The translations under genes and the position numbers were made by a program. Under the pieces are notes generated by a model. The model saw only the letters and a list, made by a program, of their open reading frames with translations, searched no databases and was not told where the DNA came from. 64,000 nucleotides of DNA from positions 4,680,070-4,744,069 of the forward strand of contig NZ_KI911782.1 in NCBI RefSeq assembly GCF_000515395.1, written 5' to 3'. Source of the DNA: Jiangella gansuensis DSM 44835 (GTDB lineage Bacteria; Actinomycetota; Actinomycetes; Jiangellales; Jiangellaceae). How positions within the stretch are numbered: the stretch's first letter is position 1; each line of letters begins with the position of its first letter. Positions 6,487-30,400 of the stretch are shown piece by piece.

Positions 6487-6489
6487 GGC

Positions 6490-6975
6490 TCAGCTCGGCA
6501 TCCCGGCGACGAGCTTGCCCAGGTCGGTGCGGGCCGTTCCCGGTAGCCACTGGGCCTCGAGGCGCACGCCCTTCCCGGACAGCTCGCGCCAGATGGCGAT
6601 CTCGTCGTCGGTGGCGTGGACTTCCTTCGTCAGCCGCTTGCGTCCCGGCCCGGTGTGGACGTTGCCGACGTTGACCTCGGTCATCTTCATGCCGGCGTCG
6701 TAGAGCGCCTTGAGCTCCGTGGGCCCCTTGACCAGGACGATCGTGGGAACGTCCGAGCTGGACTGCTTGACGATGCGGGCGGAGTCGGCGATGGTCAGGA
6801 TGTCGGCACGCACGCCGGCCGGCACCGCGAGGAGCATCAGGTTCTTCTGCGTCGCGTCGGCCGCCGTGGCGTCGTCGGCCACGAGGATCTGCTGGATACC
6901 CAGCGCCTGGGTCCATCCCATGACGACCTGGCCGTGGATCAGCCGGTCGTCGACGCGGATCAGAGCGATGTCCAT
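6490..6975 (-). CDS. PTS mannose/sorbose-family EIIB
   Basis: A 161-aa cytoplasmic phosphocarrier. The N-terminal MDIALIRVDDRLIHGQV is the family signature, with the phosphorylated His at residue 14. The start was placed at the ATG after AGAGGAACGAG. An ATG nine codons upstream overlaps the NagA tail and lacks a ribosome site. EIIB receives phosphate from EIIA and passes it to the sugar carried by EIIC/EIID. It is separated from the other three EII genes by nagA, which is unusual but keeps all in one transcript. Confidence 0.92.
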   Translation of the reverse strand: MDIALIRVDDRLIHGQVVMGWTQALGIQQILVADDATAADATQKNLMLLAVPAGVRADILTIADSARIVKQSSSDVPTIVLVKGPTELKALYDAGMKMTEVNVGNVHTGPGRKRLTKEVHATDDEIAIWRELSGKGVRLEAQWLPGTARTDLGKLVAGMPS

Positions 6976-6986
6976 CTCGTTCCTCT

Positions 6987-8153
6987 CTATGGCCTTTCCC
7001 ATTGTCCATGCATGATCGTGTGCGTGATCGTCGCGTCGTCGTCGACGACGATCAGGTCCGCCCGCCGGCCGACGGCGACGGCGCCCCGGTCGGTGAGTCC
7101 GAGGGACCGCGCCGGGTTGCGGGCCGCGGCGTTCAGTGCGATCGGTAGTGGCACCCCGGCCGCGAGCAGCACCCGCACCCCGTCGGCCAGCGTCGACGTG
7201 CTTCCGGCGATGCCACCGCTCAGCGTGAAGGCACGGCCGTCGGTCACCCGCACCGGCGTGCCGTCCCAGCGGCGGTGGTCGCCGTCGGGCAGGCCGGAGA
7301 CGTCGGTGCCGTCGCTGACCAGCATCAAGCGGTCCTGGACCCCGGGCAGCGCGGCGAGCGCGGCGATCAGCTCCGGCGCGACGTGCAGGCCGTCGGCGAC
7401 GATCTCCAGGTACACCGATGCGTCGGCGAGCAGCGCCGGCACCGGTCCCGGGTTCCGGTGGTGGACGGACGGCATCGCGTTGAACAGGTGAGTGGCGCGC
7501 CGGGCACCCCAGCCGATGGCCGCCCTGGCCTGGCCGAACGTCGCGGCCGTGTGACCGACGGCGACCCGTACGCCCGCCCCGGCGAGGGCACGGACGGCGT
7601 CCTCGGCGTGCGGCAGTTCGGGCGCGACGGTACAGATGCGCAGCGTCCCGCCGGCCGCCGCGAGCAACTCGGTGACCAGCGCCGGCTCGGGTTCGACGAG
7701 ATTCTCCTGCCGGTGCACGCCACGGAAATCCGGGCTCAGGAACGGCCCCTCCAAGTGGATTCCCAGCAGGTCGGCACCGTCCGCCCCGGTGGGCCCGGTC
7801 AGCGCGGCCAGGCCACGGACCGCCCCGAGGACCTGATCGAACGGGACGGACGCGGTGGTGGCGACGAACGACGTCACGCCGGCCGAACGCAGCCGCCGCC
7901 CGATCGACCGGACCGCGTCGGCGTCGGCGCTCATGACGTTGAAGCCGAGGCCGCCGTGCACATGGGTGTCGACGAAGCCGGGCGCCACGACGCGTCCGCC
8001 CAGGTCGATGCGCTCCACCGCGGGCCCGACGCCGTCCACCGCTCCCACGCCGGCGATGAGACCGTCGCGGACGTGGACGGCATCCGGTTCCAGCCGGCCG
8101 TCGGGCAGCAGGACCCGCGCGCCGGTCAGCACGTACTCGTCGGTCTCGGACAT
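6987..8153 (-). CDS. nagA: N-acetylglucosamine-6-phosphate deacetylase
   Basis: A 388-aa amidohydrolase-fold enzyme that deacetylates GlcNAc-6-P (or GalNAc-6-P) to the amino sugar phosphate and acetate. Metal and substrate residues are in VDTHVHGGLG (His64 and His66), GIHLEGPFLS, VAVGHTAATF, ATHLFNAM and LMLVSDGTD, and the overall length is normal. It lies between PTS EIID and EIIB with gaps of 6 and 11 bases. The placement shows that the PTS substrate is an N-acetylated hexosamine. The next enzyme, glucosamine-6-P deaminase (nagB) or an aga counterpart, is not in the window. Confidence 0.93.
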   Translation of the reverse strand: MSETDEYVLTGARVLLPDGRLEPDAVHVRDGLIAGVGAVDGVGPAVERIDLGGRVVAPGFVDTHVHGGLGFNVMSADADAVRSIGRRLRSAGVTSFVATTASVPFDQVLGAVRGLAALTGPTGADGADLLGIHLEGPFLSPDFRGVHRQENLVEPEPALVTELLAAAGGTLRICTVAPELPHAEDAVRALAGAGVRVAVGHTAATFGQARAAIGWGARRATHLFNAMPSVHHRNPGPVPALLADASVYLEIVADGLHVAPELIAALAALPGVQDRLMLVSDGTDVSGLPDGDHRRWDGTPVRVTDGRAFTLSGGIAGSTSTLADGVRVLLAAGVPLPIALNAAARNPARSLGLTDRGAVAVGRRADLIVVDDDATITHTIMHGQWERP

Positions 8154-8159
8154 GGCGGA

Positions 8160-9005
8160 TCAGGCCAGGATGCCGAAGTAGCCGAGAACCAGGCCGACGA
8201 TCAGCGTGCCGAGCAGCACCCAGACCGGCGACACCCGGCGGCGGATCAACAGATAGACACCCAGGGTCGCGATCAGCGGCAGCAACGCGGGAAGCACCAG
8301 GTCGAGTTGGTCCTGCAGCGCGATCGTCTGCTCACCGCTCGTGTACGACCACGGCGTGGTCACGTTGAGCATGGTGGCAACGAGAGCACCGGTGACGGCG
8401 AGCCCGACGATGGTCGCGCCCTGCTTGATCTGGTCGATCTGCGCGGGCGAGAGCTTCTCGAAGAACTGCATACCCGTCTTGTAGCCGCTGGCCGTGCCGC
8501 CCACCCGCATGAGCACCTGGATGGCCAGGAGTACCAGGAAGAAGATGACGGGCCCGGCGAGGTTGCCGTCGATCGCCAGCCCGGCGCAGACCGCCGCCAG
8601 GATGGGCCGGATCGTCCCGAAGATCAGCGAGTCGCCGATGCCGGCCAACGGCGCCATCAGGCCGACCTTGACGGAGTTGATGGCCTCGTCGTTCAGGTCG
8701 GTGGCACCCTTGGCGCGCTGCTCCTCCATGGAGGCGGTGACGCCGGCGATCGGGCCGACCACCCACGGGTTGGTGTTGAAGTAGACCAGGTGCCGCTGGT
8801 AGGCGGCGGCGCGGTCGACGGGATCCGGGTAGAGCCGGTCCAGCGTGGGACGCATCACCCACCAGAACCCGAGGTTCTGGAACCGCTCGTAGTTGAACCC
8901 GCCCTGCAGGAGCAGGCCGCGCACGGTCAGCCGCCGGATCTCCCGGCTCTGCTGCTCGTCCGACCGCTCCAGGACGTCGGTGGCCGTGCTGGCGTTCTCT
9001 GTCAT
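8160..9005 (-). CDS. PTS mannose-family EIID
   Basis: A 281-aa membrane component of the mannose/sorbose/GalNAc PTS. The N-terminal amphipathic part carries QGGFNYERFQNLGFWWVMRP, the middle APLAGIGDSLIFGTIRPIL, and the C-terminus ends in hydrophobic helices, all typical of EIID. Together with EIIC it forms the sugar channel. It follows the EIIC gene after 19 bases. Confidence 0.93.
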   Translation of the reverse strand: MTENASTATDVLERSDEQQSREIRRLTVRGLLLQGGFNYERFQNLGFWWVMRPTLDRLYPDPVDRAAAYQRHLVYFNTNPWVVGPIAGVTASMEEQRAKGATDLNDEAINSVKVGLMAPLAGIGDSLIFGTIRPILAAVCAGLAIDGNLAGPVIFFLVLLAIQVLMRVGGTASGYKTGMQFFEKLSPAQIDQIKQGATIVGLAVTGALVATMLNVTTPWSYTSGEQTIALQDQLDLVLPALLPLIATLGVYLLIRRRVSPVWVLLGTLIVGLVLGYFGILA

Positions 9006-9024
9006 GGTGTCTTCTCTCTCCCGC

Positions 9025-9789
9025 TCAGATCAGCGCCGACGACTGAGGACTGGCGGGCGCCTGCGGGGTGCGGTTGCGCATGATGACGATCACGAGCGCG
9101 GTGGCGATGACGGCGACGCCGATCACCGTGAAGTCGGTGAAGGCCGCCATGGCGAACCCGGCGAAGAACAGCGGGAAGAGCGCCTTGTTGTAGAGCACGG
9201 ACAGCAGGATTCCGAAGCCGACCGCCGGCAGCAGCGCCGCGGAGGTGTTCAGAGCGTTCTGGACGTCGTCGCTCAGCGCGGACAGGACGTTCTCCAGCGC
9301 GTTGGCACCGAACTGCAGGACGAGGAAGGTCGGCACGAAGTAGGCGAGGAAGTGGATGGCGTTGCCGGTCCAGATGATGCCCGTGATGGTCCGTCCTCGT
9401 GCTCTGGCCGCGGCCGCGTCGGCCCGGTGCACCAGGAAGGAGCAGACGGTCTTGGCGAACAACTCGCAGAACGTGCCGAGCACCGCCGCGGGAACCGCCG
9501 CCACCAGCGCCGTCTCCACGCCTTGTCCGGCCGAGATCGACAGGGCCGTGCCGACGGCCGCGCCGATGGCCACGTTCGGCGGAGCGGTGCCGCCGAACGT
9601 GGCGGCCCCGATGAAGATCAGCTCCAGGGTGCCGCCGACGATCAGGCCGGTCTCCAGGTCGCCCGCGATCAGGCCGACGACGGGGCCGAGGATGATCGGC
9701 CGCTCCAACTGCGGGTCGCCGAGGATGCGTCGCGCCAGGTACGCCAGGGCGACCACCAGCGCGATGAGGAACGCTTGCCACAACGTCAC
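9025..9789 (-). CDS. PTS mannose-family EIIC
   Basis: A 254-aa polytopic membrane protein, the sugar-translocating subunit of a mannose-family PTS. Recognisable stretches are LIAGDLETGLIVGGTLELIFIG and GAAVGTALSISAGQGVETAL. About seven or eight hydrophobic segments are visible. Its ATG overlaps the stop of the EIIA gene by four bases, implying translational coupling. Confidence 0.92.
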   Translation of the reverse strand: MTLWQAFLIALVVALAYLARRILGDPQLERPIILGPVVGLIAGDLETGLIVGGTLELIFIGAATFGGTAPPNVAIGAAVGTALSISAGQGVETALVAAVPAAVLGTFCELFAKTVCSFLVHRADAAAARARGRTITGIIWTGNAIHFLAYFVPTFLVLQFGANALENVLSALSDDVQNALNTSAALLPAVGFGILLSVLYNKALFPLFFAGFAMAAFTDFTVIGVAVIATALVIVIMRNRTPQAPASPQSSALI

Positions 9790-10220
9790 GACAGTCCTCC
9801 TTCCGAGCGGGCGGTGGGGCTGACGAGGGAGCCGGCGTCACGGATCCCGTCCCGTCCCGCGGTGACAGCCCGGTCGGCGAGCTCGGACGCGGACGAGGTG
9901 CCCGCACTCAGCGCCAGGTCGATGAGCATGGGGAGATTGACTCCGGTGACGACGTCCGCCTTGCCGGCCGCGGCCTGATCGAGCGCCACCCGGGCGGGCG
10001 ATCCGCCGAGGACGTCGGCCAGGACCAGCACCTGGCCGGGCTCGCCGGCGCCGTTCAACCGGTCGATCAACGAACTCACCTGCTCGGTCAGCTCATCGAC
10101 CCCCGAACCCACCGGGAAGTCGACGGCGTGGACGTTCTGCGTCGAGCCGACGATCATCTCCGCCGTCTCGAGCAACGACGTAGCGAACGAACCGTGGCCC
10201 GTCACGACGATACTTGTCAT
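9786..10220 (-). CDS. PTS mannose-family EIIA
   Basis: A 144-aa phosphocarrier beginning MTSIVVTGHGSFATSLL, with the active His at residue 9, and containing VLVLADVLGGSPARVAL and TGVNLPML as expected for this fold. It accepts phosphate from HPr and donates it to EIIB. It is the first gene of the eight-gene minus-strand operon. The ATG directly abuts the 20-bp palindrome and has no Shine-Dalgarno. TATGCA within the palindrome sits six bases upstream as a -10 candidate, so the mRNA is probably leaderless and occlusion of the palindrome would shut it off. Confidence 0.92.
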   Translation of the reverse strand: MTSIVVTGHGSFATSLLETAEMIVGSTQNVHAVDFPVGSGVDELTEQVSSLIDRLNGAGEPGQVLVLADVLGGSPARVALDQAAAGKADVVTGVNLPMLIDLALSAGTSSASELADRAVTAGRDGIRDAGSLVSPTARSEGGLS

Positions 10221-10240
10221 CCATACTGCATACAGTATGG
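10221..10240. promoter_or_regulatory. Perfect palindromic operator between PTS operon and ptsI
   Basis: CCATACTGCATACAGTATGG is an exact inverted repeat (CCATACTG / CAGTATGG, four-base centre). On the plus strand TTGTCA and TATGGA, 16 bp apart, flank and overlap it as the ptsI promoter. On the minus strand it holds the -10 of EIIA. The ATAC/GTAT ends match GntR/FCD operators, so the GntR protein of this operon is the likely ligand. Confidence 0.7.
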
Positions 10241-10277
10241 AGAAAGATCCCTGCAACTCGAGACGCGAGGAGCGCGC

Positions 10278-11948
10278 ATGGCGGCCAACCCATCCACCAC
10301 CCTGACCGGACGAGGCGCAGGGCACGGCCAGGCAGTCGGCCCGGTCGTCCAGCTCGCGCCCCCGGCCCGGCGCCCCGCGGACGAACCCGCCGGCGACCCG
10401 GACACCGCGGGCGAGGTCGCGCGAACGGCGCTGAACGCCGTCGCCAACGACCTCACGGCCCGGGCCGGCGACGCCGACGGCACGCTGGCGGAGGTGCTGA
10501 CGGTGACGGCGCAGATGGCAGCGGACCCGCAGCTGACGGCCGACATCGCGCAACGTGCCAAGCATGGCGACGGCCCGGCGACGGCCATCTGGGACGCCTT
10601 CGACCCGTTCCTGGAGAAGCTGGCCGGGCTGGGCGGCTACCTGGCCGAGCGGGTGACCGACCTGCGCAGCGTCCGGGACCGCGCCGTCAACCGCGCGCTG
10701 GGACTACCCGAGCCCGGGCCGGCACGGCTGGTGGCGCCGTCGGTGGTGGTCGCCACGGATCTCTCCCCTGCCGACACCAGCGCGCTGGACCTCGGGAACG
10801 TCGCGGCGATCGTCACCGAGGAAGGCGGACCCACCAGCCACACCGCCATCATCGCCGGTCAGCTCGGCATCCCCTGCGTCGTCCGGGTCGCCGGCGCCAC
10901 CGAGCTCCCGGCCGGCCGCCTGGTCGCCGTCGACTCCGTCAGAGGAACCGTCACGCTCGACCCCGACGACGAGCTCATCGCCGCTGTGACGCACGCGGAG
11001 ACGGCCCGCGCGTCCGTCCAGGGGACTGCGCCGGCCACGCACACCGCCGACGGGCATCCGGTCTCCGTGCTGGCCAACGTCGGGACGCTCGCCGACGCCA
11101 CCAGCGCGGCCGCCACGGGCGCCGTCGGCGTCGGCCTGCTGCGCACGGAGGTCCTCTACCTCGACCGCGCGACCGCACCGAGCATCGACGAGCAGGCGGC
11201 CGCCTACCGCGACGTGCTCGCCCAGTTCCCCGGCGGCAAGGTGGTGGTGCGCACGCTCGACTCCGGCGCCGACAAGCCGCTCCCCTTCGCCACGCAGCCG
11301 GACGAGGAGAACCCCGCCCTCGGCGTACGCGGCTACCGGCTGGCCCGGCCGCGCCCGGAACTGCTCGACGACCAGCTCGCCGCGCTCGCCCGCGCCCAGC
11401 AGGACAGCGACGCCGAACTGTGGGTGATGGCCCCGATGATCTCGACACCCGCCGAGGCCGCCGAGTTCGCCGCGCTCGCCCGCGGCCACGGACTCACCCG
11501 GGTCGGCGCAATGGTGGAGGTCCCGTCAGCCGCGCTGCGAGCCCGCGAGGTGCTCGCCGAGCTGGACTTCGTCTCCATCGGCACCAACGACCTCGCGCAG
11601 TACACCATGGCCGCCGACCGCCTCCGCGGCGAGCTCGCCGACCTGCTCGATCCGTGGCAGCCGGCCGTCCTCGACCTGGTGGCGGCGACCGCCCGCGCCG
11701 GAGCCGACGCCGGCAAACCCGTGGGCGTGTGCGGCGAGTCCGCCGGTGACCCGGTGATGGCCCTGGCCCTGATCGGCCTGGGCGTCACCAGCCTGTCCAT
11801 GGCCCCCGCTGCCGCGGCCGAGGTCAGCCACGCGGTGACCGGCCACACGCTGGCAGAGTGCCGGGCTGTCGCCGCGGCCGCCCTGGCCGCCACCGATGCG
11901 GCCGGCACCCGGGAAGCGGCCCAGGCAGCCGTCGGCGGGCGCTCCTGA
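10278..11948 (+). CDS. ptsI: PTS enzyme I (PEP-protein phosphotransferase)
   Basis: A 556-aa enzyme I that takes phosphate from PEP and passes it to HPr. The swivelling domain carries EEGGPTSHTAIIAGQLGIP with the phospho-His at residue 188. The C-terminal barrel has GVGLLRTEVLYL, the PEP-binding segment FVSIGTNDLAQYTMAADR and the catalytic Cys in GKPVGVCGESAGD. The ATG after GAGGAGCGCGC was chosen. It is divergent from the EII operon across a shared operator, so general PTS energy supply appears tied to amino-sugar induction. No HPr gene (ptsH) is adjacent and it must lie elsewhere. Confidence 0.95.
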   Translation: MAANPSTTLTGRGAGHGQAVGPVVQLAPPARRPADEPAGDPDTAGEVARTALNAVANDLTARAGDADGTLAEVLTVTAQMAADPQLTADIAQRAKHGDGPATAIWDAFDPFLEKLAGLGGYLAERVTDLRSVRDRAVNRALGLPEPGPARLVAPSVVVATDLSPADTSALDLGNVAAIVTEEGGPTSHTAIIAGQLGIPCVVRVAGATELPAGRLVAVDSVRGTVTLDPDDELIAAVTHAETARASVQGTAPATHTADGHPVSVLANVGTLADATSAAATGAVGVGLLRTEVLYLDRATAPSIDEQAAAYRDVLAQFPGGKVVVRTLDSGADKPLPFATQPDEENPALGVRGYRLARPRPELLDDQLAALARAQQDSDAELWVMAPMISTPAEAAEFAALARGHGLTRVGAMVEVPSAALRAREVLAELDFVSIGTNDLAQYTMAADRLRGELADLLDPWQPAVLDLVAATARAGADAGKPVGVCGESAGDPVMALALIGLGVTSLSMAPAAAAEVSHAVTGHTLAECRAVAAAALAATDAAGTREAAQAAVGGRS

Positions 11949-19914: not shown

Positions 19915-20826
19915 TCAGCCCTTCACCGCCCCGGACACCAGACCCGAAGTCATCCGGTGCTGGACGAACAAGAAGAAGATCATCACGGGTATCGCGATCA
20001 CCACGGAACCGGCCATGATACCGGCCCAGTCACTGGTCCGGTTGGCCTCGGTGAACGTCTTGAGCCAGATCGGGAGGGTCATGTTCTCCGGCCTCGTCAT
20101 GACGACGAGCGCCAGCGTGAACTCGTTCCAAGCCTGCAGGAACGCGTACACCCCGCTGGCCACCAGGCCCGGCGCCAACAGCGGGAACGTGATGCGGAAG
20201 AACGCCTGCACGCGGCTGCAGCCGTCGACCAGCGCCGCCTCCTCCAGCTCGCGCGGCACGCCGTTGACGAAGCCGCGCAACATCCAGATGGTGAACGGCA
20301 CCACCGCCGCGACGTACAGCAGCGACAACCCCACCACGCTGTTGAGCAGCTGCCACCCCTCCAGCAGCTTGAACTGGGAGATGAACAACCCCTCGGCCGG
20401 GATCATCTGGATGATGAGCACCGCCAGGATGAAGCTGCGACGGCCGCGGAACCGGAACCGCGACAACGCCAGCGCCGCCAGGAACGCGAACACCAGCGCC
20501 GCGGCCACCGTGATCAGCGTGACGACGGCGCTCATCCGGAACGCGCTGAAGAAGTCGCTGTCGAAGACCCGCTCGTAGGCCGACAGCGTGCCGCCCAGCG
20601 GGAGGAACGACGGCTCGGGGCTGCGGATGCGGTTGTACGGCAGGAACGAGCTGTTCAGCATCCAATAGACCGGGAACGCCCAGACCAGCGCGACGGCAAC
20701 GGCCAGGACACCGAACCACCGGCGCCGGGTCCGGGCCGGCCTGCGGCGAGACGGCGGCCTCGCCGGCGGTGCCGCGGGGCGCGGCCCGCCGGTTGTTGTC
20801 GTCGGCGGCGGGGTCAGCGTGCTCAC
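19915..20826 (-). CDS. Carbohydrate ABC transporter permease (MalG-type)
   Basis: A 303-aa inner-membrane permease with six helices and the EAA loop EEAALVDGCSRVQAFFRITF. The first ~45 residues are Pro/Thr/Arg-rich and disordered. The GTG start overlaps the stop of the upstream permease and follows GGAGGAG. It pairs with that permease to form the translocation pore. No ATP-binding gene is in the operon, so a shared MsiK-like ATPase is expected. Confidence 0.9.
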   Translation of the reverse strand: MSTLTPPPTTTTGGPRPAAPPARPPSRRRPARTRRRWFGVLAVAVALVWAFPVYWMLNSSFLPYNRIRSPEPSFLPLGGTLSAYERVFDSDFFSAFRMSAVVTLITVAAALVFAFLAALALSRFRFRGRRSFILAVLIIQMIPAEGLFISQFKLLEGWQLLNSVVGLSLLYVAAVVPFTIWMLRGFVNGVPRELEEAALVDGCSRVQAFFRITFPLLAPGLVASGVYAFLQAWNEFTLALVVMTRPENMTLPIWLKTFTEANRTSDWAGIMAGSVVIAIPVMIFFLFVQHRMTSGLVSGAVKG

Positions 20827-21797
20827 AGCTCCTCCTCCCGGACCAGGACCCGGACGTAGTAGAGGCTCAGCGCCACCGTCAGCAGCAACATGAACCACGA
20901 CGCGGCCGCGGCGAGGCCGAACTCCCCCTCGCCCAGCCCGAGCCGGTAGATGTACGTGCCGATGAGGTTGGTGTCCGCGGTGACCCCGCCGGCGTCCTGC
21001 AACACGAAGATCTGGGTGAACACCTTGAGGTCCCAGATGATCTGCAGCAGGCCGACGATCAACAGCACCGGCCGCACCAGCGGGACGGTGATGGCGCGGA
21101 AGCGCTGCCAGGGTGAGGCGCCGTCGATGCCCGCGGCCTCGTACAGCTCGCCCGGCACCTGTGTCAGCCCCGCGTAGACGGCGAACGCCACGAACGGCAC
21201 GCTCATCCACACCACGATGACGGTGGCGACCGTGAAGAACGACAGCTGGTCGATCAGCCACGAATGCCCGGCGAACTGCTCCAACCCGGCCTGGACCAGC
21301 ACCCAGTTGACCACCCCGTACTGCGCCTCGAACAGCCACTGCCACACGGTCAGCGACGCCAGGTGCGGCATCGCCCAGGCCAGCAGCAACCCGATCTGCA
21401 GCGTCAGCCGCGGCCCCGGTCCCGTCTGCGTCATCAGCACCGCGAGCGCCACACCCAACACCATCGTGATGGATGCGTTGGCCAGGCAGAACAGCACCGA
21501 CCTGAACACGACCGTCCACAGGTACGAGTCCGTGATCAGCTCGACGTAGTTGTCCAGCCCCACCCACTCCGGCGGCTGCCCGAACTGCTGCGCCAGGCCG
21601 TACTCCTGGAACGACATGACGGCCTGACGTACCAGCGGATAGCCGAGCGCCGCCGCGAGCACCAGCACTGCCGGGACCAGCAAGAGGTACGGCAGCACGC
21701 CCGCTCGACGCCGTCGCGGCGCGACCTGGGCCGCCGGCGCCCCGCCGGCCGGCGGCCCAGCGGCCGGGCTAGTCGAGCTGGTCGGCGATGGCCGCAT
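20823..21797 (-). CDS. Carbohydrate ABC transporter permease (MalF-type)
   Basis: A 324-aa permease with six membrane helices and an EAA loop reading YEAAGIDGASPWQRFRAITVP. An N-terminal disordered Pro/Ala/Arg segment of ~30 residues precedes TM1. Its first 29 bases overlap the end of the binding-protein gene. It forms the heterodimeric pore with the second permease. Confidence 0.9.
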   Translation of the reverse strand: MRPSPTSSTSPAAGPPAGGAPAAQVAPRRRRAGVLPYLLLVPAVLVLAAALGYPLVRQAVMSFQEYGLAQQFGQPPEWVGLDNYVELITDSYLWTVVFRSVLFCLANASITMVLGVALAVLMTQTGPGPRLTLQIGLLLAWAMPHLASLTVWQWLFEAQYGVVNWVLVQAGLEQFAGHSWLIDQLSFFTVATVIVVWMSVPFVAFAVYAGLTQVPGELYEAAGIDGASPWQRFRAITVPLVRPVLLIVGLLQIIWDLKVFTQIFVLQDAGGVTADTNLIGTYIYRLGLGEGEFGLAAAASWFMLLLTVALSLYYVRVLVREEEL

Positions 21798-23064
21798 CGG
21801 CGTTCTCGGCGAGCTGCTGGATGTCTCCGCCGTTCGCGATCGCGACGAACAGGTCCTCCAGGATCCGGGAGCCCTCGACCGACGCCCAACCGGCCGCGGC
21901 GGGGGTGAGCTTGGCGTTCGAGACCGCTTCGACGGTGGCCGCGGCGAACTCGTCGGTGCCCAGGCCGGACGCGAGCGACGTCTTGGCCGGGGTGAGGCCG
22001 TTCTCGGCGTACTGGCTCTGGAACTCGTCGCTGAGCATCAGCTCGACCAGATCGCGCGCCAGTTCCTGGTTCGGCGAGGTCGCGGAGACGGCGATGTTGG
22101 AGCCGCCGAGCAGCACCGGCGCGGGTTCACCGTCACTGCCGGGCAGCGCGAAGACGCCGACGTTCGCCATCATGTCCGGGCAGCCGAGCTCCGGGTCCTC
22201 GATGCTGCCGCGCAGCCAGCCCGGGCGCAGTGCCATGCCGACCTCACCGGCACAGAACGGGACGTGCCCGTCGGCCTCGTTGCCGTCCTTCGGCGCACCG
22301 GACGCCTCGGTGAACAGCCGCTGCACCAGTTCCAGACCGGCCTGCGACTCCGGGGTCGACAGCGCGCCGACCCACTCGCCGTCCTCCTCGACGGCGAAGT
22401 CGCCGCCGGCATCCCAGACGAACGCCGCGCCGTCGCGCCAGTCCTGGCCGGGCAGCCAGAACCCGCTGAAGTTGGCGACGCCAGCGTTGTCCTGCTTCAG
22501 CTTCACCGCGGCGTCGACGAACTCCTGCATGGTGGTCGGGACCTCGATGCCGGAGGCGGCGAACAGGTCCTTGCGATAGAAGACGTAGGCCGAACCGGCG
22601 TAGAGCGGGACCGCGTAGGTACGGCCGTCCGCGGTGCCGGCGTCGACGAAGCCCTGGAGCAGGTCCTCGCCGCCGAGGTCCGGCAGCAGGTCGGTGATGT
22701 CGCTGAACGCGCCGACGGTGGTGAACGTGGGCGCCTGCGTGTTGCCGACCTCGACGACGTCCGGGGTCTCGGACTCGCTGCCCAGCGAGGTGGTGAGCCG
22801 GTCGACCAGGCCCTCCCACTGCTGCTCCTCGATGGTCAGCGTCGAACCGGGGTGCCGTTCCTCGAACTCGGCGACCAGCCAGTCGCGCATCGACTGCGGA
22901 GTGTCCGGGCCGTTGATCCACAACCGGAGGTCGGCCGGCTCCGGAGTGCCGCCGGTCTCGGCCCCCGCGGCGGGTTCGGTGCTGTCGTCGCCGTCACCGC
23001 CGCACGCGGAGAGTGCAAGTGCCGCGGCGGCGATGCCGGCGGTGAGTAGACGTGCTCTGTTCAC
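21769..23064 (-). CDS. Sugar ABC transporter substrate-binding lipoprotein
   Basis: A 431-aa extracellular binding protein of the MalE/UgpB class. A lipoprotein signal peptide ends in LALSAC with the lipidated Cys at residue 21, followed by an acidic low-complexity linker. The mature part has MalE-like stretches (LIEEQQWEGLVDRLTTSL-type N-lobe, AVPLYAGSAYVFYRKDLF). The GTG start after AGGAGGAACCGCC was chosen over a longer frame. It heads the operon with two permeases and a GH3 hexosaminidase, so chitobiose or related GlcNAc oligosaccharides are the best substrate guess. Confidence 0.9.
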   Translation of the reverse strand: MNRARLLTAGIAAAALALSACGGDGDDSTEPAAGAETGGTPEPADLRLWINGPDTPQSMRDWLVAEFEERHPGSTLTIEEQQWEGLVDRLTTSLGSESETPDVVEVGNTQAPTFTTVGAFSDITDLLPDLGGEDLLQGFVDAGTADGRTYAVPLYAGSAYVFYRKDLFAASGIEVPTTMQEFVDAAVKLKQDNAGVANFSGFWLPGQDWRDGAAFVWDAGGDFAVEEDGEWVGALSTPESQAGLELVQRLFTEASGAPKDGNEADGHVPFCAGEVGMALRPGWLRGSIEDPELGCPDMMANVGVFALPGSDGEPAPVLLGGSNIAVSATSPNQELARDLVELMLSDEFQSQYAENGLTPAKTSLASGLGTDEFAAATVEAVSNAKLTPAAAGWASVEGSRILEDLFVAIANGGDIQQLAENADAAIADQLD

Positions 23065-23516
23065 GGCGGTTCCTCCTGTGCAAGCGCAAACTGGAAGGTG
23101 CCCTTTCAATAGGTGGTCCTACTGTAAGGTTTCCTATCAGTTCCGCCAGTCACAGTTCCGTAACGCCCTCGGAAATGATCACGTGGCCCATGGGCTCTCC
23201 CGCTCCACCACGAATGCTTGCCCCGTGGAGCGGGAACGGTCCTGGTGGTGGACGACGCCATACGCCCGCCACCACCACCCGCCCACACGTCGACGACACC
23301 TCATGCGCCGCGCGGACGCACCGCGCCCGTCGAGACTGATCCTGCGTCCGTCCCGCAAGTGACGTGCCCGCACGCGCACGACGACGGCCCGATCCGGGCT
23401 TGTGGTCACGGGCCATGCGCCCAGCCGTCTTACCGCTTCAATAGGCAAGCATCCCTGGGGGAGCGGGAAGACCCATGGGCCACGTGATCATTCCCGGACT
23501 AGGACCGGAGAGGGGC
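23065..23516. other. 450-bp intergenic region with AT-rich promoter and large inverted repeat
   Basis: No gene is convincing here. The 5' part (about 23096-23140) is unusually AT-rich for this DNA and probably holds the promoter and operator of the sugar ABC operon, including ATAGG...CCTAT half-sites. The remainder is filled by the large inverted repeat listed separately. Confidence 0.5.
23174..23492. repeat. Large inverted repeat, 49-bp arms around ~220 bp (copy C)
   Basis: The left arm begins AATGATCACGTGGCCCATGG and the right arm is its inverse complement, with about 43 of 49 positions identical. The left arm holds a second, nested hairpin (CCCGCTCCAC / GTGGAGCGGG). The interior of about 220 bp has no convincing ORF. 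The outer ends match copy D, so this looks like a non-autonomous MITE-like element or an expanded intergenic repeat. It separates the ABC operon from the ROK regulator. Confidence 0.7.
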
Positions 23517-24683
23517 TCACTCGGTCGTGGCGAAGAGGTTCTCCCGGGCATGGGCGACGGCGGTCAGGACCGCGCCGCGGAGCACCGGGGCGTCCTTGAC
23601 CGCGGTCGGGACCACCTGCGGGTTCACCGGGGCGATCCGGCGCACGTCGTCGCCGACCAGCTCGCACAGCCGCTCTCCGCCCGCGGCGCCGACCTCGCCG
23701 GCCACGACCACCAACGCCGGGTCGACCACGGCGCAGACGGACGCCACCCCGAGCGCCAGCCGGTGCGAGAACGCGTGCAGGAACTCCTCGGTCGCCGTTC
23801 CACCGGCCAGGGCGACCCGCACCGCCGCGGCGGCCCCGTCGGCGCGGATGCCGTGTTCGCGGGCCAGTTCGCCGACGGCGCCGGCACCGACGAGCGCCTG
23901 GAACGCGCCCTGCGCCGGGCGGTCGACGCTGGCCGGGGACGGCGCTCCGGGCATCGGCAGGTATCCGATCTCGCCGGCCGCCCCGGTGGCACCGCGGTGC
24001 AGGTGGCCGCTGAGGACGACCGCGAGCCCGACACCGCGGCCCACCCACAGCAGCACCATGTCGTCGACGTCACGGGCGGCGCCCTCGGCCCGTTCGGCGA
24101 CGGCGGCGAGGTTGACGTCGTTCTCGAAGGCGACGTCGCAGCCGAGGTCCGCGGCGAGCCGGTCGCGCAGGCCCCGGTGCCAGCCGGGCAGGTCGAAGGA
24201 GAGGTCGATGTCGCCGTGGGTGGGGTCGACGACACCCGGCATGCCGATGACGACGCCGTCGACGTCGCCGACGTGAATGCCCGCTTCGGCCGCCGCGGCC
24301 CGCGCCACGTCGTGGATCAGCCGCTGCGGTGCAGGCCCGCCGTCCAGCGGCTGGGAGACCTGCCCGACGACGGTTCCGGTGACGTCGGCGACGGCGGCGA
24401 CAGCCAGGTCCGGATTGAGCTCGACGCCGATCGAGTGCGAGCAGCCGGGACGCACGGCGTACACCTCGGCGCTGGGGCCGCGGCCGGCCGAGCGGGTGCC
24501 GACGACCTCGACCAGGCCGCGGTCCTGCAGCCGCGCCAGCAGCTGGGAAGCGGTCACCTTGGACAGCCCGGTCATGCGGCCGAGATCGACGCGAGTGAGT
24601 GGCCCGGCGGTGAGCAGCAGCTCCAGCGCGCTGCGGTCGTTGATGGCCCGAAGCAGGCTCGGGGTGCCAGGTCGTTGCGACAC
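23517..24683 (-). CDS. ROK-family transcriptional regulator
   Basis: A 388-aa repressor with an N-terminal winged helix (residues ~10-75; LGRMTGLSKVTASQLLARLQ) and a sugar-kinase-like ROK domain containing VIGMPGVVDPTHG, FENDVNLAAVAE and GATGAAGEIGYLPM. The usual zinc motif CxCGxxGCxE is absent, and the His normally following AGE-IG is Tyr. This is thus an atypical ROK protein that may not bind zinc. The GTG start follows GGAGG. It lies next to the GlcNAc-oligosaccharide-type ABC operon on the same strand and probably represses it (NagC/Rok7B7-like role, inferred). An AT-rich GGAAACAGTCTTATG block precedes it. Confidence 0.85.
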   Translation of the reverse strand: MSQRPGTPSLLRAINDRSALELLLTAGPLTRVDLGRMTGLSKVTASQLLARLQDRGLVEVVGTRSAGRGPSAEVYAVRPGCSHSIGVELNPDLAVAAVADVTGTVVGQVSQPLDGGPAPQRLIHDVARAAAAEAGIHVGDVDGVVIGMPGVVDPTHGDIDLSFDLPGWHRGLRDRLAADLGCDVAFENDVNLAAVAERAEGAARDVDDMVLLWVGRGVGLAVVLSGHLHRGATGAAGEIGYLPMPGAPSPASVDRPAQGAFQALVGAGAVGELAREHGIRADGAAAAVRVALAGGTATEEFLHAFSHRLALGVASVCAVVDPALVVVAGEVGAAGGERLCELVGDDVRRIAPVNPQVVPTAVKDAPVLRGAVLTAVAHARENLFATTE

Positions 24684-24829
24684 GTGGCCTCCGATTCGCC
24701 AGCTGGAAACAGTCTTATGAAAAGAATTCTTGGCGACACCGTACATCCCGCCCCGGTGACGGGCGAGTACCGCGCCACCGCCGCCGCTCCGGCCAGACGG
24801 CCGGTTGGAAGGGTCCCCACCAGTGATGG

Positions 24830-24842: not shown

Positions 24843-26063
24843 ATGACCGCCGGACCCGAGCTGACCCTGGATCAGCTCGCCGGCGACGCCGCGGTGGAGC
24901 GCCTCTACCGGCAGGTTTTCGCGGTCTTGGCGCGCGAGTCCGGCGCCATGATCTCCGACGTCGAACTGCTCGACGTCGACGAGGCCATCCTCGACGCGTT
25001 CGCCGACGCCGGGCGTGAAGGGCTCACCGTCGACCAGGCGGTCGCTGCCTGCCGGCCCATCGACCCGGGCCTGGTGCACCGCCGGTTCGAGGTGCTGCGC
25101 GACTACGGCGCCATCAGCAAGGTGGTCGACCGCCCCAACGAGCGCTACCACCGGGCGGCCTTCGCGCCGTACGTCATGTTGCTGTTCCTGCGCCGGATGG
25201 CGGCGCAGGGCGGTCAGGCCGAACTGCACCAGCTGCTGACGCTCGAGCATGTGGGCGTCACGGCGTCCGACGCGAGCCCCGAGACCGGCCGTACCTCGAT
25301 CAACCGGCTGACCAGGATCTTCCGCCACCTGGGCAATGAGTTGGCCATCCTCGCCGCCGGCAGCACCGCCGAGCAGCTCGGCGATCACGCACAGCTGCTC
25401 TGGGGCAACAAGAACCTCATCGGCCAGGCCGAGGACGTCCACGCCGTCGTGCTGGAGCGCTGGCCGGAACTCGACCGCGAGTGCGCCGCGCTGCGGGTGG
25501 CGCTGGCCGCCTATGGCGATGCGGTGGAGAAGGCCGCCGGCCGGCTGATCGAGCGGGCCGGCACCACCCGGGCGCTCGGTTTGCTGTCGGTGGAGTCGTG
25601 GTTGAGCTTCGCCCGGACGGCATCCGAGCACGACCTCGCCGGGGTGCTCGACAGCTTCGTCTTCGACGCGCCCGCGCCGTGGTTCTCACCGACGCTGCTG
25701 ACCGAGGCGGTCGAGGCCGGCCGCAGCGCCGGAACCGTCCGGCAGCCGCCGCCCCGGCCGGAGTCCAGCGCACCGGCACCGGAACGCGACATCGTCCCGG
25801 CCGACGACGCCGCCCGCCTGCGCGACACCGCCGAGCGGCTGCTGAGTGGCGCCGACGCCGTCGACGTCGCGAGCGCGCTCGACGACACCGACGACTGGCT
25901 GGCCGCCCGGCGGCTGCTGGCCGAGCTGACCGCGATCCACCACCACCCCGACCTCGAGTACGAGCTGACCTGGTCCGACGGCCTGCGCATCGATGTCGAC
26001 GGCAGCCCGTCGTGGGTGTCGGACGGGACGTTCCGCAGGACGAGCGCCGAGGACGCCGCCTGA
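24843..26063 (+). CDS. Kleisin/MukF/JetA-like winged-helix protein
   Basis: A 406-aa soluble protein, first gene of a four-gene operon ending in an SMC-like ATPase. Residues ~45-110 form a winged helix (VDQAVAACRPIDPGLVHRRF...LRDYGAISKV). A helical middle region (~110-280, with WGNKNLIGQAEDVHAVVLER) resembles the neck-binding coil of MukF/JetA. A Pro/Ala linker (PPPRPESSAPAPERD) leads to a second small domain at ~310-400. This N-domain, coil, linker, C-domain order is that of a kleisin. The next gene starts two bases after the stop. I infer the kleisin role from architecture and context, since direct similarity to named families cannot be tested here. Confidence 0.6.
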   Translation: MTAGPELTLDQLAGDAAVERLYRQVFAVLARESGAMISDVELLDVDEAILDAFADAGREGLTVDQAVAACRPIDPGLVHRRFEVLRDYGAISKVVDRPNERYHRAAFAPYVMLLFLRRMAAQGGQAELHQLLTLEHVGVTASDASPETGRTSINRLTRIFRHLGNELAILAAGSTAEQLGDHAQLLWGNKNLIGQAEDVHAVVLERWPELDRECAALRVALAAYGDAVEKAAGRLIERAGTTRALGLLSVESWLSFARTASEHDLAGVLDSFVFDAPAPWFSPTLLTEAVEAGRSAGTVRQPPPRPESSAPAPERDIVPADDAARLRDTAERLLSGADAVDVASALDDTDDWLAARRLLAELTAIHHHPDLEYELTWSDGLRIDVDGSPSWVSDGTFRRTSAEDAA

Positions 26064-26064
26064 C

Positions 26065-26628
26065 ATGACCGACGACGACACCGCCCTCTGGTGGGCGCGG
26101 CACCGCGCGGGCGGACCGCAGCGGGTCGCCCCCACCAGCGCCTACCCGGCCGGCATGACCCGGCTGGTCGAACCGGACGCCGAGGCCGTGTGGCTGCTGC
26201 CCGAGCTGCCCGCCGGCGCCCGGCCGGACGTCCTGGACGAGTTGGGCCTGCCGGGCGTCGCCGTCGACCAGCCAAATGACACCGCGCGGGTCCTCGCCGC
26301 CTGCCTGCGCTGCTGCTGGACCGAGCCCACCGGCCCGGTCTGGCCAGCCGCGCCGGCGCCCTTCGAGCAGGTCGTCGCGGTGTTCCGGGCAGCCACCGGC
26401 AGCCGCGACGAGCGCGCGCTACACGCGGCGGCCATGGGCGGGGTGCGGCGCCTCGCCGGCTCCGGGTGGGTCCTGTTCGACGAGGAGACGCGCACCGTCC
26501 GGCTCGGCCCGCGGGTGGCCGCGTGGAGTGCCGCCGAGCTGAGCACGCTGCGCGAACTGTGGCGCTCCCTGCCGCTGCCCAGCCCGCCCGGCGATGCAGC
26601 CGCCCGCCCGCCGGAGGACGTCGCGTGA
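26065..26628 (+). CDS. Small winged-helix (KITE-like) protein, SMC operon
   Basis: A 187-aa protein of no recognised family. The N-terminal half is Trp/Pro-rich (ALWWARHRAGGPQR; VWLLPELPAG). The second half contains a likely winged helix (AAMGGVRRLAGSGWVLFDEETRTVRLGPRV) followed by a helix and a Pro-rich tail. It is wedged between the kleisin-like gene (one-base gap) and the next gene (GTGA overlap). Two consecutive small winged-helix genes before an SMC gene recall the paired KITE subunits Nse1/Nse3 or ScpB dimers. This is inference. Confidence 0.55.
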   Translation: MTDDDTALWWARHRAGGPQRVAPTSAYPAGMTRLVEPDAEAVWLLPELPAGARPDVLDELGLPGVAVDQPNDTARVLAACLRCCWTEPTGPVWPAAPAPFEQVVAVFRAATGSRDERALHAAAMGGVRRLAGSGWVLFDEETRTVRLGPRVAAWSAAELSTLRELWRSLPLPSPPGDAAARPPEDVA

Positions 26629-27299
26629 GCAGCACCGTCTTCGATGCCGCCCTGGCCGAGCTGGGCGAACGCAACCGCGACGAGGTCCTCGCGGCGTTCG
26701 CCGCGCTCGAGCACGGCCGCGAGCCGGTCGCGGAGGCGCAATTGGTGGCGCTGCGCGATGCCACCGTCCGCCGCGACCTGCAACGGCTGCTGGCCCGGGT
26801 GGGCCGCACCCTGGTCCGGGTGGGCAGCACGCACTGGACCACCGGGTTCCGCGACGACATCACCGCCGCGCTGGCCGCTGAGGGCACGACCGCCCAGTCG
26901 TCGATGGACCGGGCGGTACTCGTGCTGGTTCTCATCCACTCGGTCGCGATCCCCCGTAGTCAGGGGCTCATCGGCGGCGACTCGTGGACGTCCGGTCACC
27001 CGACGTCCGTCGACGAGCTGACCCGCTACGCCCAGCTGCCGCGCGGCGAGATCCGCCCGGCGCTGCAACGGCTGCGTGCGGCCGGGCTGGTGCAGATCGC
27101 GCCGGCCCGCGGGCGAACCACCGCCGACGCCGGGCCCGCGTACCTGCCCGGTCCGGCGCTGCACCGGCTCACCAAGGCCGCCCGCGAGCGGCTGGAGCAC
27201 GAGCTGATCCTGGCGGCCGCGCCGGACAGCCCGCTCGCCGCGGCCATCCGGGCCCGCCGTCCCGGCCGGCCCACCGCTGAAGGGAGTGACGACACGTGA
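26625..27299 (+). CDS. MukE/JetB/KITE-like winged-helix protein
   Basis: A 224-aa protein. The C-terminal half has a clear winged helix (SVDELTRYAQLPRGEIRPALQRLRAAGLVQIAP). The N-terminal half is helical with a first candidate wing around LLARVGRTLVRVGSTHW. The GTG start overlaps the previous stop, and its own stop overlaps the ATPase start (GTGA-type junction), so all four operon genes are translationally coupled. Size, fold and position fit the MukE/MksE/JetB subunit that bridges kleisin and SMC heads. Confidence 0.6.
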   Translation: MSSTVFDAALAELGERNRDEVLAAFAALEHGREPVAEAQLVALRDATVRRDLQRLLARVGRTLVRVGSTHWTTGFRDDITAALAAEGTTAQSSMDRAVLVLVLIHSVAIPRSQGLIGGDSWTSGHPTSVDELTRYAQLPRGEIRPALQRLRAAGLVQIAPARGRTTADAGPAYLPGPALHRLTKAARERLEHELILAAAPDSPLAAAIRARRPGRPTAEGSDDT

Positions 27300-30200
27300 G
27301 CCCAGTCTCGGGCGGCGCCTTCGACATAGTCGGCGAGCGGGTGCTCGTCGGCGTCCAGGTGGTCGACATCTCCCGGCTGTCTACGCACCCGGTGCCGATG
27401 ATCGGCCAGGGCCTGGTCACCGTCGCCGGGCAGGGGCCGAAGGACTCCAACGGCGCCGGCAAGTCGTCGTTCATCGCGGCGTTGAGCCTGCTGCACGCCG
27501 ACGAGCAGTGGAAGCTCACCAGCGGTGCGGCCGGCGCGGCTGAGCTGCTGTTCACGGCCGAACTGGCGGCTCAGGAAGGCCGCTGGTCCAACGTCGACCG
27601 CGGTTACGTCATCGGTGTCTTCGCGCCCCCGGGCACGGCCGACGTCACCATGCTGACCAGCAACACGCTGACCGTCTGGCTACGCATCAACCGCAAGGCG
27701 CCGTACATCGACGTGCGCTGGACCGACGGGCTGCACGTCCCGCACGGCGCCACCGAAGCGGAGCGGGCGGCCGGAGTCGACGCGATGTGGCAGGCGCTGC
27801 CGCGCAGCAACGGCCGCACCGACGTCCACGCCGGCCAGCTGTCGCGGGTCTTGTTCGGGCAGCACGCGCGCTGCGTGTCGTTCCTGTCGACGTCGGTACG
27901 CTCCAGTCAGACGGCGAACCTGCTGGCCCAGCCGCTGAACGACCTGCCGCCGCACCGCATCTTCGACGCCCTCGCCACACTCACGGGCCTCGACCGCGAG
28001 CTGGAGCACGAGCAGGTGCTGCGCACCGCCGAGCACCGGCACCGCAGCGACGTCCTCGACGCCGAGCGGGACCTCGCGACCTGGGAGAGCGAGATGGCGG
28101 TCGTCGAGGCCGGCATCGCTCGCCGGCTCGCGGCCCGGGATCTCCTCGACGACGCCCGCACGGCCTGGCGCGCCCGCTGCGCCCGGCATCTGCTGGACGG
28201 CGTCGAGCAGTCAGAGCACATCCGGCGCACGCTGGCCGAGCTCGACGAGCGCGAAGCGGAGCTGCGCGGCGAGATCGAGGCGGTCGAGGAGCGGTTGTCG
28301 GCGCTCACCGACGACGACGAGTCCGCCCGCCGCTTCGAGGCCGCACAGCGCCGCCGCAACGAGCTGATCGCCCGTGACCGCGAGTTGGAGGCGACCCACC
28401 TCGCGGCCACCCAGCAGGTCGAGCGGCTCAGCGAGACTCTCAGGTCGCTGACCGAGGAGGCGCAGGCCGCCGACGGCCGCACTCCGCCGGTCGCCGCCGA
28501 GGAACGGGAGCAGGCCCGCACAGTGCTCGAGGAGGCCCTCGGCGCCCAGGCGGTGGCCCGGGCCGCCGCCGGCGACGCCCGCCGCCGGCTTGCCGCGACG
28601 GAGTCCGGTGACGACGTCGCGGCCGAGCAGGTCGGGCTGCTGCGAACCGCCGGTGTCGAGGCGACCGCCCTGGTCGACGTCGTCGAGATCGACCCGGCGG
28701 AGCGCGACGTGTGGGAGCCGCGGCTGGCGCCCTACCGCGAGGCCGTGGTGGTCTCGCGGGACGACGGCGCCCGCGCGGCCGCCGCGCTGACCGGCCTGCC
28801 CGGCTCGCTGCTGGTGCTGGCCGACGCCGGCCGTGACCTGTCCGCGTTCCTCGCCGCGCTGGCCGACCGCGCGGGCGAGCCTGCCGCCGTCGTCGACGGG
28901 ACAGCGACCACGGACGAGGCCGGGCCGGCCGCCGTCGTCGATGCGGCCGCCGGTGTGATCGCCGTCGGCGGGTTCGCCGACCCGATCACCGGGCAGCCGG
29001 CGCGGGTGGCCGCCGCGACCGCTGACCTCGAGGCCGCTTCCGCCGCCCTGGAGGAAGCCGGCGCCGCCGTCGACCAGGCCCGCGGCGCCGTCGCCCGGGC
29101 GGAGGCGCGGGCCCGCGCCGCCGACGCCGCCGAGCGGGCCGACGCCGTCCAGAAGGAGATCGGCGAGCTGCGCGAGGCCAACATCGAGCGGCAGGACCGC
29201 CGCGACGCGCTGGTCCCGGAACTCGCCGAGGCCGAGGCCGCATACGCCCGCGAGCTCGGCGTCCACAACTCCCGCGAGGAGCGCGTGAACAGCCTGCGCG
29301 ACACCCGCAAGCGGCTGACGCAGACCCTCACCGAGCACGAATCGCGGCGCCTGGAGCTGATCTCCGAGCGCGACGGTCTCGGCCTGCTCGACCGCGAGAA
29401 GGCGTGGGGCGACTCCCCCGACGCCGCCCGCCGGCATCTGCTCGAACTCGACCAGGATGTCCAGGGCCGCACCACCGCGGAGTGGGACGAGGCAGCCTGC
29501 CGGCTGACCAACGAGGTGGCCATCAGGTGCTTCCCGCCCGGTACCCCGGCGGAGGAGATGACGGCCGAGCTTCGCGAGCTGCTGGTCACGCAGAACTGGG
29601 TCGGCGGCAGCCTCGAAGCACGAGCCGCCCTGGTCGCGCCGCTGCAGCGCGCCCTCGACACCCATCTCGAAGACACCGAGGAACACGACCAGCACCAGCT
29701 CACGCAGATCACCGAGCAGCGTGCCCGGCGCACCTCCGACCTCGCGGCCGCCCGGCTCGGGCACAGCGAGGCCGAGCAGACCGCCCGAGCCCACCGCACC
29801 TCACTCGCGTCGGGCATCAAGGCGATGCTGAAGAAGGTCGCGGCCGAGTTCGACCGCCTGGACCAGGAGTACGGCGGGTACGGCGCGGGGCTCGACTTCC
29901 CCGAACCGGAGCCGCCGTCGGAGCCGGACAAGCCGTGGCGCTGGACCGTCAGCCCCAAGTGGCGGCGCGCCGAGGGGCAGCGGATGTCCGCCTACACGCT
30001 GCGCAGCAACACCGCACAGATGGACGAGAAGGCCGTCAAACTGGTGTGCGCCGCCGCCCTGGCGCGGGGCGCGGACCGGCCGCTGCTGCTCATTCTCGAC
30101 GAACTCGGGCGCAACCTCGGCAAGCAGCACCGCCGCGAAGCCGTCGCGCTGTTCGAGCGGATCGGCAACGACCACAACATCACCGTCGTCGGAGCACTGC

Positions 30201-30400
30201 AGGACGACATGGAGCGCTACGCCATCGAGGCGTCCGGGCTGTACATCAAGCTACGCCGGCGCTCGGACACCATGGCGTACAACGAAGAACCGGTTGTGGT
30301 CGGCAACGAAGCCAACAGCGACCGGGTCGAGCTGCTGCGCTCCTGGATGTCCTCCTACCGGCCCGGCACCCTCGACGTCGAGTCCGAAGGCGCCGCCTGA
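27296..30400 (+). CDS. SMC-like coiled-coil ATPase (MukB/JetC-like)
   Basis: A 1034-aa protein with split ABC-type head halves. Walker A near residues 50-58 reads DSNGAGKSS (Asp where the first Gly usually stands). After ~230 residues come long Arg/Glu-rich coiled coils (~230-440 and ~580-700), separated by a globular hinge-like section (~445-570). The C-terminal head has SAYTLRSNTAQMDEKAVKLV in the signature position, Walker B LLLILDELGRNLGKQHR and a switch segment NITVVGALQDDME. This is SMC/Rad50/MukB architecture in a shorter form. With the three preceding genes it should form a DNA-entrapping complex. Chromosome organisation, repair or plasmid/phage defence are all possible, and no nuclease subunit (JetD/MksG) follows. 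Confidence 0.75.
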   Translation: MSPVSGGAFDIVGERVLVGVQVVDISRLSTHPVPMIGQGLVTVAGQGPKDSNGAGKSSFIAALSLLHADEQWKLTSGAAGAAELLFTAELAAQEGRWSNVDRGYVIGVFAPPGTADVTMLTSNTLTVWLRINRKAPYIDVRWTDGLHVPHGATEAERAAGVDAMWQALPRSNGRTDVHAGQLSRVLFGQHARCVSFLSTSVRSSQTANLLAQPLNDLPPHRIFDALATLTGLDRELEHEQVLRTAEHRHRSDVLDAERDLATWESEMAVVEAGIARRLAARDLLDDARTAWRARCARHLLDGVEQSEHIRRTLAELDEREAELRGEIEAVEERLSALTDDDESARRFEAAQRRRNELIARDRELEATHLAATQQVERLSETLRSLTEEAQAADGRTPPVAAEEREQARTVLEEALGAQAVARAAAGDARRRLAATESGDDVAAEQVGLLRTAGVEATALVDVVEIDPAERDVWEPRLAPYREAVVVSRDDGARAAAALTGLPGSLLVLADAGRDLSAFLAALADRAGEPAAVVDGTATTDEAGPAAVVDAAAGVIAVGGFADPITGQPARVAAATADLEAASAALEEAGAAVDQARGAVARAEARARAADAAERADAVQKEIGELREANIERQDRRDALVPELAEAEAAYARELGVHNSREERVNSLRDTRKRLTQTLTEHESRRLELISERDGLGLLDREKAWGDSPDAARRHLLELDQDVQGRTTAEWDEAACRLTNEVAIRCFPPGTPAEEMTAELRELLVTQNWVGGSLEARAALVAPLQRALDTHLEDTEEHDQHQLTQITEQRARRTSDLAAARLGHSEAEQTARAHRTSLASGIKAMLKKVAAEFDRLDQEYGGYGAGLDFPEPEPPSEPDKPWRWTVSPKWRRAEGQRMSAYTLRSNTAQMDEKAVKLVCAAALARGADRPLLLILDELGRNLGKQHRREAVALFERIGNDHNITVVGALQDDMERYAIEASGLYIKLRRRSDTMAYNEEPVVVGNEANSDRVELLRSWMSSYRPGTLDVESEGAA

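Follow-up and report, generated by a model that had tools for sequence, protein, structure and literature searches.

A nuclease-less SMC-kleisin-KITE-type operon of Jiangella gansuensis, probably derived from a Wadjet-like ancestor

What does a four-gene SMC operon do when no nuclease is linked to it, and how did it come to lack one? The question is raised by a 64,000-nucleotide stretch of Jiangella gansuensis DSM 44835 (contig NZ_KI911782.1, positions 4,680,070 to 4,744,069; hereafter the window), in which genes A to D encode a kleisin-like protein, two KITE-like proteins and an ATPase of the structural maintenance of chromosomes (SMC) type. Our analysis indicates that they probably encode a nuclease-less SMC-kleisin-KITE complex that arose from a Wadjet-like ancestor, lost its effector in the window's lineage and has been kept as a vertically inherited complex that would organise or sense DNA without cleaving it. 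The genome is one contig of 5.59 Mb. Re-deriving the open reading frames returned exactly the coordinates, lengths and couplings given by an earlier, sequence-only reading: A and B are separated by one base, B-C and C-D each overlap by 4 bases, and all four genes lie on the + strand.

24843..26063, + strand: gene A, kleisin-like subunit, 406 aa, start ATG
26065..26628, + strand: gene B, first KITE-like subunit, 187 aa (from B-C fusion in relatives and a winged-helix-like secondary-structure pattern in the modelled fusion)
26625..27299, + strand: gene C, second KITE-like subunit, predicted tandem winged helix (ScpB-like), 224 aa, start GTG
27296..30400, + strand: gene D, SMC-type ATPase, JetC/TIGR02680-related, 1034 aa, start GTG

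Curated Pfam and NCBIfam thresholds were not reached by any of the four proteins, and the matches from PADLOC were weak. The link to Wadjet comes first from D, which by hhalign matched the Wadjet JetC family TIGR02680 at 95.6% (E 1e-8), over the N-terminal head and neck only; an SbcC control in this type of comparison reached 12.3%. By profile comparison of its head and neck, D is thus an SMC ATPase of the JetC type. The PADLOC JetC models did not match the window's D. Its Walker B (LLLILDELG) lies near one end and its Walker A near the other; the stretch that separates them is predicted coil around a middle that looks globular, in line with the sequence-only description of an ATPase with a split head, coils and a central hinge-like part.

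27428..27469, + strand: Walker A of D, GQGPKDSNGAGKSS, residues 45-58, a motif found in 44/44 D proteins of the tree described below
30083..30121, + strand: Walker B and D-loop of D, LLLILDELGRNLG, residues 930-942, from a motif survey of D proteins

The ATP-binding cassette (ABC) signature of D (window 30005-30019, residues 904-908) reads S-N-T-A-Q where LSGGQ/E is usual; N905 and A907 do not vary across 15 diverse D proteins. PADLOC matches of D to LmuB/SMC (LmuB E 3e-4, residues 304-388) were set aside as coil resemblance, and weak JetC2/JetC3 matches in the second half of the D protein of a far relative, L043, were kept out of the evidence. Against PDB sequences, the D and C profiles returned coiled-coil or winged-helix-like noise only, and the A profile nothing.

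For A, B and C, neither library scans nor profile comparisons gave a family or profile match, TIGR02677 against A included, and their assignment draws on structure models. The model of A has a predicted local distance difference test score (pLDDT) of 61.4, and its domain limits are therefore approximate.

25209..25568, + strand: A residues 123-242, predicted helical bundle, with MukF(1-287) as top-ranked structural match (structure comparison of the weak model)

In this model, A begins with a helical part, followed by the MukF-like bundle (~123-242), a low-confidence linker (~293-320) and a C-terminal part (~323-400) whose secondary structure predicts a winged helix. A thus appears, weakly, most like a MukF kleisin. 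B and C form a single protein, a natural B-C fusion, in Nonomuraea relatives; the two unlike KITEs therefore probably act together. The fold of C was taken from the model of one such homologous fusion, P0171 (pLDDT 85.5, predicted TM-score 0.80), to whose C half the window's C is 50% identical. That half gave ScpB/ScpAB structural matches with probabilities of 0.91-1.00, none with an E under 1e-3, and VIA over both winged helices, so that the model gives C the tandem winged helix of the KITE superfamily. The B half, barely covered by fold matches, shows one winged-helix-like secondary-structure pattern, from which a winged helix is predicted for B. An expected correspondence of TIGR02678 to the B-C fusion was not borne out (0.3% against the B-C profile, no match), and weak Csa3/TrmB/MarR matches of C were attributed to winged-helix resemblance. 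Collectively, the MukF-type matches of A (weak model), the ScpB-type fold of C, the B-C fusion and the D-JetC profile match uphold the earlier proposal of an SMC-kleisin-KITE-type complex with two KITE-like subunits.

Is this a functional unit that is maintained? A genome scan found 40 loci with D, in Jiangella (the nearest named loci), Haloactinopolyspora, Kribbella, Saccharothrix, Amycolatopsis, Kineosporia, a Dactylosporangium metagenome-assembled genome and others. The conserved gene order that the earlier reading had proposed surveying for was seen by tblastn in 39/40 loci, which keep A-B-C-D; the exception, L038, is a fragment with D only. D was present in 12/12 Jiangella genomes, in 14/22 genomes of the window's family, in 28/393 of a class sample and 3/396 of a phylum sample (both counting the window's own genome), and in 131/297 sampled genomes of one actinobacterial family, seemingly that of Nonomuraea. 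For A-D, the ratio of nonsynonymous to synonymous substitution rates (dN/dS) was 0.09-0.30 across four pairs of Jiangella species; for A, C and D it was 0.02-0.12 across three Kribbella pairs. These values indicate purifying selection on the subunits. Since the order is kept in 39/40 loci, D occurs in every Jiangella genome and dN/dS is 0.02-0.30 in all seven species pairs, the operon is not a chance arrangement. Broken copies elsewhere (L092, L094 and the frame breaks of L031) might suggest an operon that decays, non-working, after nuclease loss. Such an explanation is barely credible given these dN/dS values, the kept gene order and the Walker motifs, which are intact in 23/23 effector-less D rows.

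Two loci, L021 and L032, have ~2 kb between C and D, where a gene of 329-334 aa is called on the opposite strand; these are the sole such interruptions among the 40 loci. In L031, a Fodinicola copy (5893-11456), the frames of A-D are broken, perhaps by assembly errors, which ruled it out as a natural A-B-C fusion. The surrounding genes of the effector-less Jiangella loci look ordinary; in the window, a ROK-type regulator and a sugar ABC transporter set, judged by eye, lie at 19915-24690 on the - strand, divergent from the operon. In all 21 Kribbella-named loci and in L019, the contig ends 1.4-6.8 kb past D. A 5S rRNA was found at the contig end in 3/6 Kribbella loci searched; these breaks are therefore probably rRNA operons, an explanation that replaced one of telomeres.

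Given that D resembles JetC, the next question is whether the family has a JetD. It does in part: JetD is encoded with the core in the relatives L010, L011, L029, L093 and L116-L119. In L010, L011 and L029, a TOPRIM protein of the JetD family is encoded by a gene that overlaps the D stop by GTGA. These nucleases gave PADLOC JetD1 matches; PF09983 (JetD_C) was above cut-off in L010, and PF09664 (DUF2399) was above cut-off in L029 and just below it in L010 and L011. In the far relative L043/L093, a DUF2399/JetD protein is encoded after A-B-C-D. L116-L119 have a JetD gene convergent with D; TOPRIM motifs are present in 4/4, and JetD_C matched L116-L118, the three scanned, at E 3e-12 to 6e-18. Against the PDB, the L117 nuclease gave one weak match, to MksG (E 0.03), over the TOPRIM part. 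Labelling effectors by blastp of called genes had missed the L117 JetD; a profile rerun over 132 loci changed no label.

In two further loci, the N-terminal docking domain of the L010 nuclease is instead fused to a Ser/Thr kinase overlapping the D stop (L028:13120-14499 and L012:7778-9160). Compared with the L010 docking domain, those of L012 and L028 show 71% and 79% identity, and PF00069 matched the two proteins at E 6e-27 and 1e-27, respectively. Both inspected kinases keep the Gly-rich loop, the Lys and HRD, with DWG in place of DFG. A gene of 344-349 aa follows the kinase (L028:14534-15568, L012:9230-10279); its L012 copy had no match in Pfam or PADLOC. A plain Ser/Thr kinase of 578-581 aa also lies ~160 bp past D on the same strand in L079 (10304-12049) and L080 (10389-12125). 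It has no docking domain and is missing from L120 of the same genus, and was rejected as an effector; these loci were scored as none.

A search with the docking domain returned 46 proteins: 28 with TOPRIM motifs, 2 with DUF2399 without the motif string, 11 with the kinase motif HRDIKPAN and 5 short ones (254-313 aa) with neither TOPRIM nor kinase motif. Profile comparison (93.8%) shows the N-terminus of the far L116 JetD to be homologous to this domain. When the JetD and docking-domain profiles were run over all frames of 132 loci, both were found only in the loci named above, in duplicates, in remnants (L076/L092, and L044/L094 with the JetD part only) and, weakly, in L059 and L060, whose matches are ordinary Wadjet JetD. 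In the L092 remnant, a JetD-like stretch shares a frame with a D tail; in that of L094, part of the D head is followed downstream by a JetD-like tail. The survey for a recurrent fifth gene, likewise suggested by the sequence-only reading, thus found one: in relatives it appears repeatedly, either as a nuclease of the JetD type or as a kinase that shares the docking domain. This places the system in the Wadjet sphere, with the window as a branch without effector.

Neither nuclease nor kinase accompanies the operon in Jiangella, in Kribbella or in most of the loci sampled from a Nonomuraea-type family. The JetD nuclease of Wadjet was found neither in the window nor in its genome, which had no match to JetD_C (control C. 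glutamicum positive) or to DUF2399. The earlier statement that JetD is lacking therefore stands for the window and its genome and falls as a family trait, some relatives carrying the nuclease.

Was the nuclease lost or never gained? A D tree of 44 rows was built by a quick search, with long branches flagged. L031 was left out because its frames are broken (its partial D is still in alignment A1), as were the fragment L038 and kinases P0164-P0169, which have more distant docking domains; L105, L106, L114 and L093 duplicate L029, L026, L038 and L043, respectively. Labels of 11/44 rows came from indirect pairing of the docking-domain and D protein lists, by which 16/46 docking-domain proteins could be paired; P0068, P0070 and P0086 also agree by organism name, and the other eight, including the rows nearest the window's clade, were labelled by the pairing. 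With support 91, the clade of the window (none) joins rows that bear the label nuclease, some of these labels being paired indirectly; all four kinase rows fall into a single clade (97, starred) nested in nuclease rows. The label none needs 4 changes on the tree, 3 of them forced by starred branches.

An effector-less ancestor, that is, a condensin-like complex that gained JetD once or more and so became Wadjet-like, would agree with these parsimony counts, which are the same for loss and gain of the nuclease, and with the distant row L115, without effector within its fetched stretch. We consider it improbable all the same: the deepest split has JetD with a homologous N-terminal docking domain on either side, and L107 (none) falls within nuclease-labelled rows (labels paired indirectly). 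Because the docking domain is shared across that split, the comparison of sequences favours an ancestral nuclease that would have been lost in the window's lineage.

Could the complex still act in defence? In this explanation it would recognise plasmid or phage DNA and either act alone, entrapping or silencing it, or use an effector of another kind encoded elsewhere. The family lies in the Wadjet sphere, and defence genes adjoin the three nuclease-bearing relatives for which neighbours were scanned in depth: L010 adjoins Avs2 (E 1e-109), PDC-S68 (E 0) and an SbcD-like phosphoesterase, L029 a CBASS-type cyclase (E 5e-119), and L118 GajA and GajB of Gabija (E 7e-188 and 3e-181). L117 and L119 have similar neighbours, judged from first residues only; the one L011 neighbour scanned had no match. 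DUF2399 also matched in 4/12 Jiangella genomes, once in a 67-aa frame and three times in ordinary-looking TIGR02680/DUF2399 Wadjet-type operons (L058, L059, L060) alongside the conserved four-gene operon. The effector-less copies are nonetheless fixed in the genus, the Kribbella operon lies close to an rRNA operon, unlike a mobile island, and neither an L010-type JetD nor the docking domain was found in any of the 12 Jiangella genomes (docking profile positive in controls G798 and, weakly, G903). The operon was absent from phage records and from viral contigs (0 among 410 pattern stretches), its sole plasmid record is an 11.85 Mb Nonomuraea replicon, and no L010-type JetD was found in plasmids. 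Active defence is therefore an unlikely role for the window's operon. Of the unlinked effector suggested earlier, the known types (JetD_C, DUF2399) are absent from the window's genome, and the L010-type JetD and the docking domain from all 12 Jiangella genomes; the DUF2399 matches in four of the 12 are the exception, three of them in apparent Wadjet operons of their own.

In the favoured reading of nuclease loss, D dimers, with ATPase heads, coiled-coil arms and a central hinge-like domain, would be closed by the kleisin-like A, to which a B-C KITE heterodimer would bind. The Wadjet-like ancestor would have had, as its fifth subunit, a TOPRIM nuclease of the JetD type that carried a docking domain at the N-terminus; the window's lineage would have lost this subunit and retained the SMC motor as a chromosomal complex. 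By analogy with MukBEF and Wadjet, the complex may still translocate or extrude DNA with ATP, without cutting. In relatives, reaching the target state would activate the docked nuclease or kinase; since no effector is encoded in the window's branch, the complex there would organise, sense or hold DNA uncut. It might serve as a condensin/MksBEF-like organiser, or it might silence or sequester foreign circular DNA without cleaving it. Canonical ScpA is also encoded in the window's genome, so the complex would add to Smc-ScpAB and not replace it. What we infer here is the assembly of the complex, its activity as a motor, its biochemical function, and that the nuclease was lost, not gained.

A wider interpretation seems to us evenly balanced: that the window belongs to a new Wadjet-like SMC branch on a KITE heterodimer, in which the cutting subunit is a plug-in: some lineages would have JetD, at least one would have swapped it for a Ser/Thr kinase that carries the same docking domain, and repeated losses would have left a chromosomal complex kept by purifying selection. 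On this view, the window would be a parallel, still traceable instance of the proposed path from Wadjet defence to a MukBEF/MksBEF-like housekeeping condensin. With nuclease-bearing and nuclease-free forms of one complex on one tree, that idea becomes testable with living relatives, and the kinase-for-nuclease exchange, if true, would mean that an SMC DNA sensor could drive signalling instead of cutting. The proteins remain below every Pfam and NCBIfam cut-off despite the wide occurrence of D in one family. No nuclease-less or kinase-bearing Wadjet was found in the PMC literature by title or abstract opening, with most subscription papers and bioRxiv preprints outside its scope.

How, then, does the operon compare with known systems? 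Lamassu has an SMC-like core, LmuB, with diverse LmuA effector domains, as PMC10586767 describes, and resembles the family in its varied effectors on an SMC core; the LmuB profiles match D weakly and over coil-like stretches. Smc5/6 has two unlike KITEs, Nse1 and Nse3, per complex (PMC10512200). The comparison with Nse1/Nse3 made by the sequence-only reading survives as an analogy only: no sequence or fold match was seen, and the window has a single SMC gene. MukBEF/MksBEF fits in composition, as kleisin, KITE and SMC without linked nuclease, and MukF is among the best structural neighbours of A; it differs in that no sequence match was found, the window has two different KITEs, and the C half is ScpB-like in the fold list. 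From Wadjet JetABCD/MksFEBG (types I-III; TIGR02677-TIGR02678-TIGR02680-TIGR02679 operons) the window's operon differs by two separate KITE genes instead of one, by a D of 1034 aa compared with 1365-1412 aa in L125-L128, and by a branch without JetD, another branch having a kinase in its place. With Wadjet it shares a gene order of kleisin-like, KITE-like and SMC subunits, a D head similar by profile to TIGR02680 and, in some relatives, a JetD_C/DUF2399 nuclease as fifth gene.
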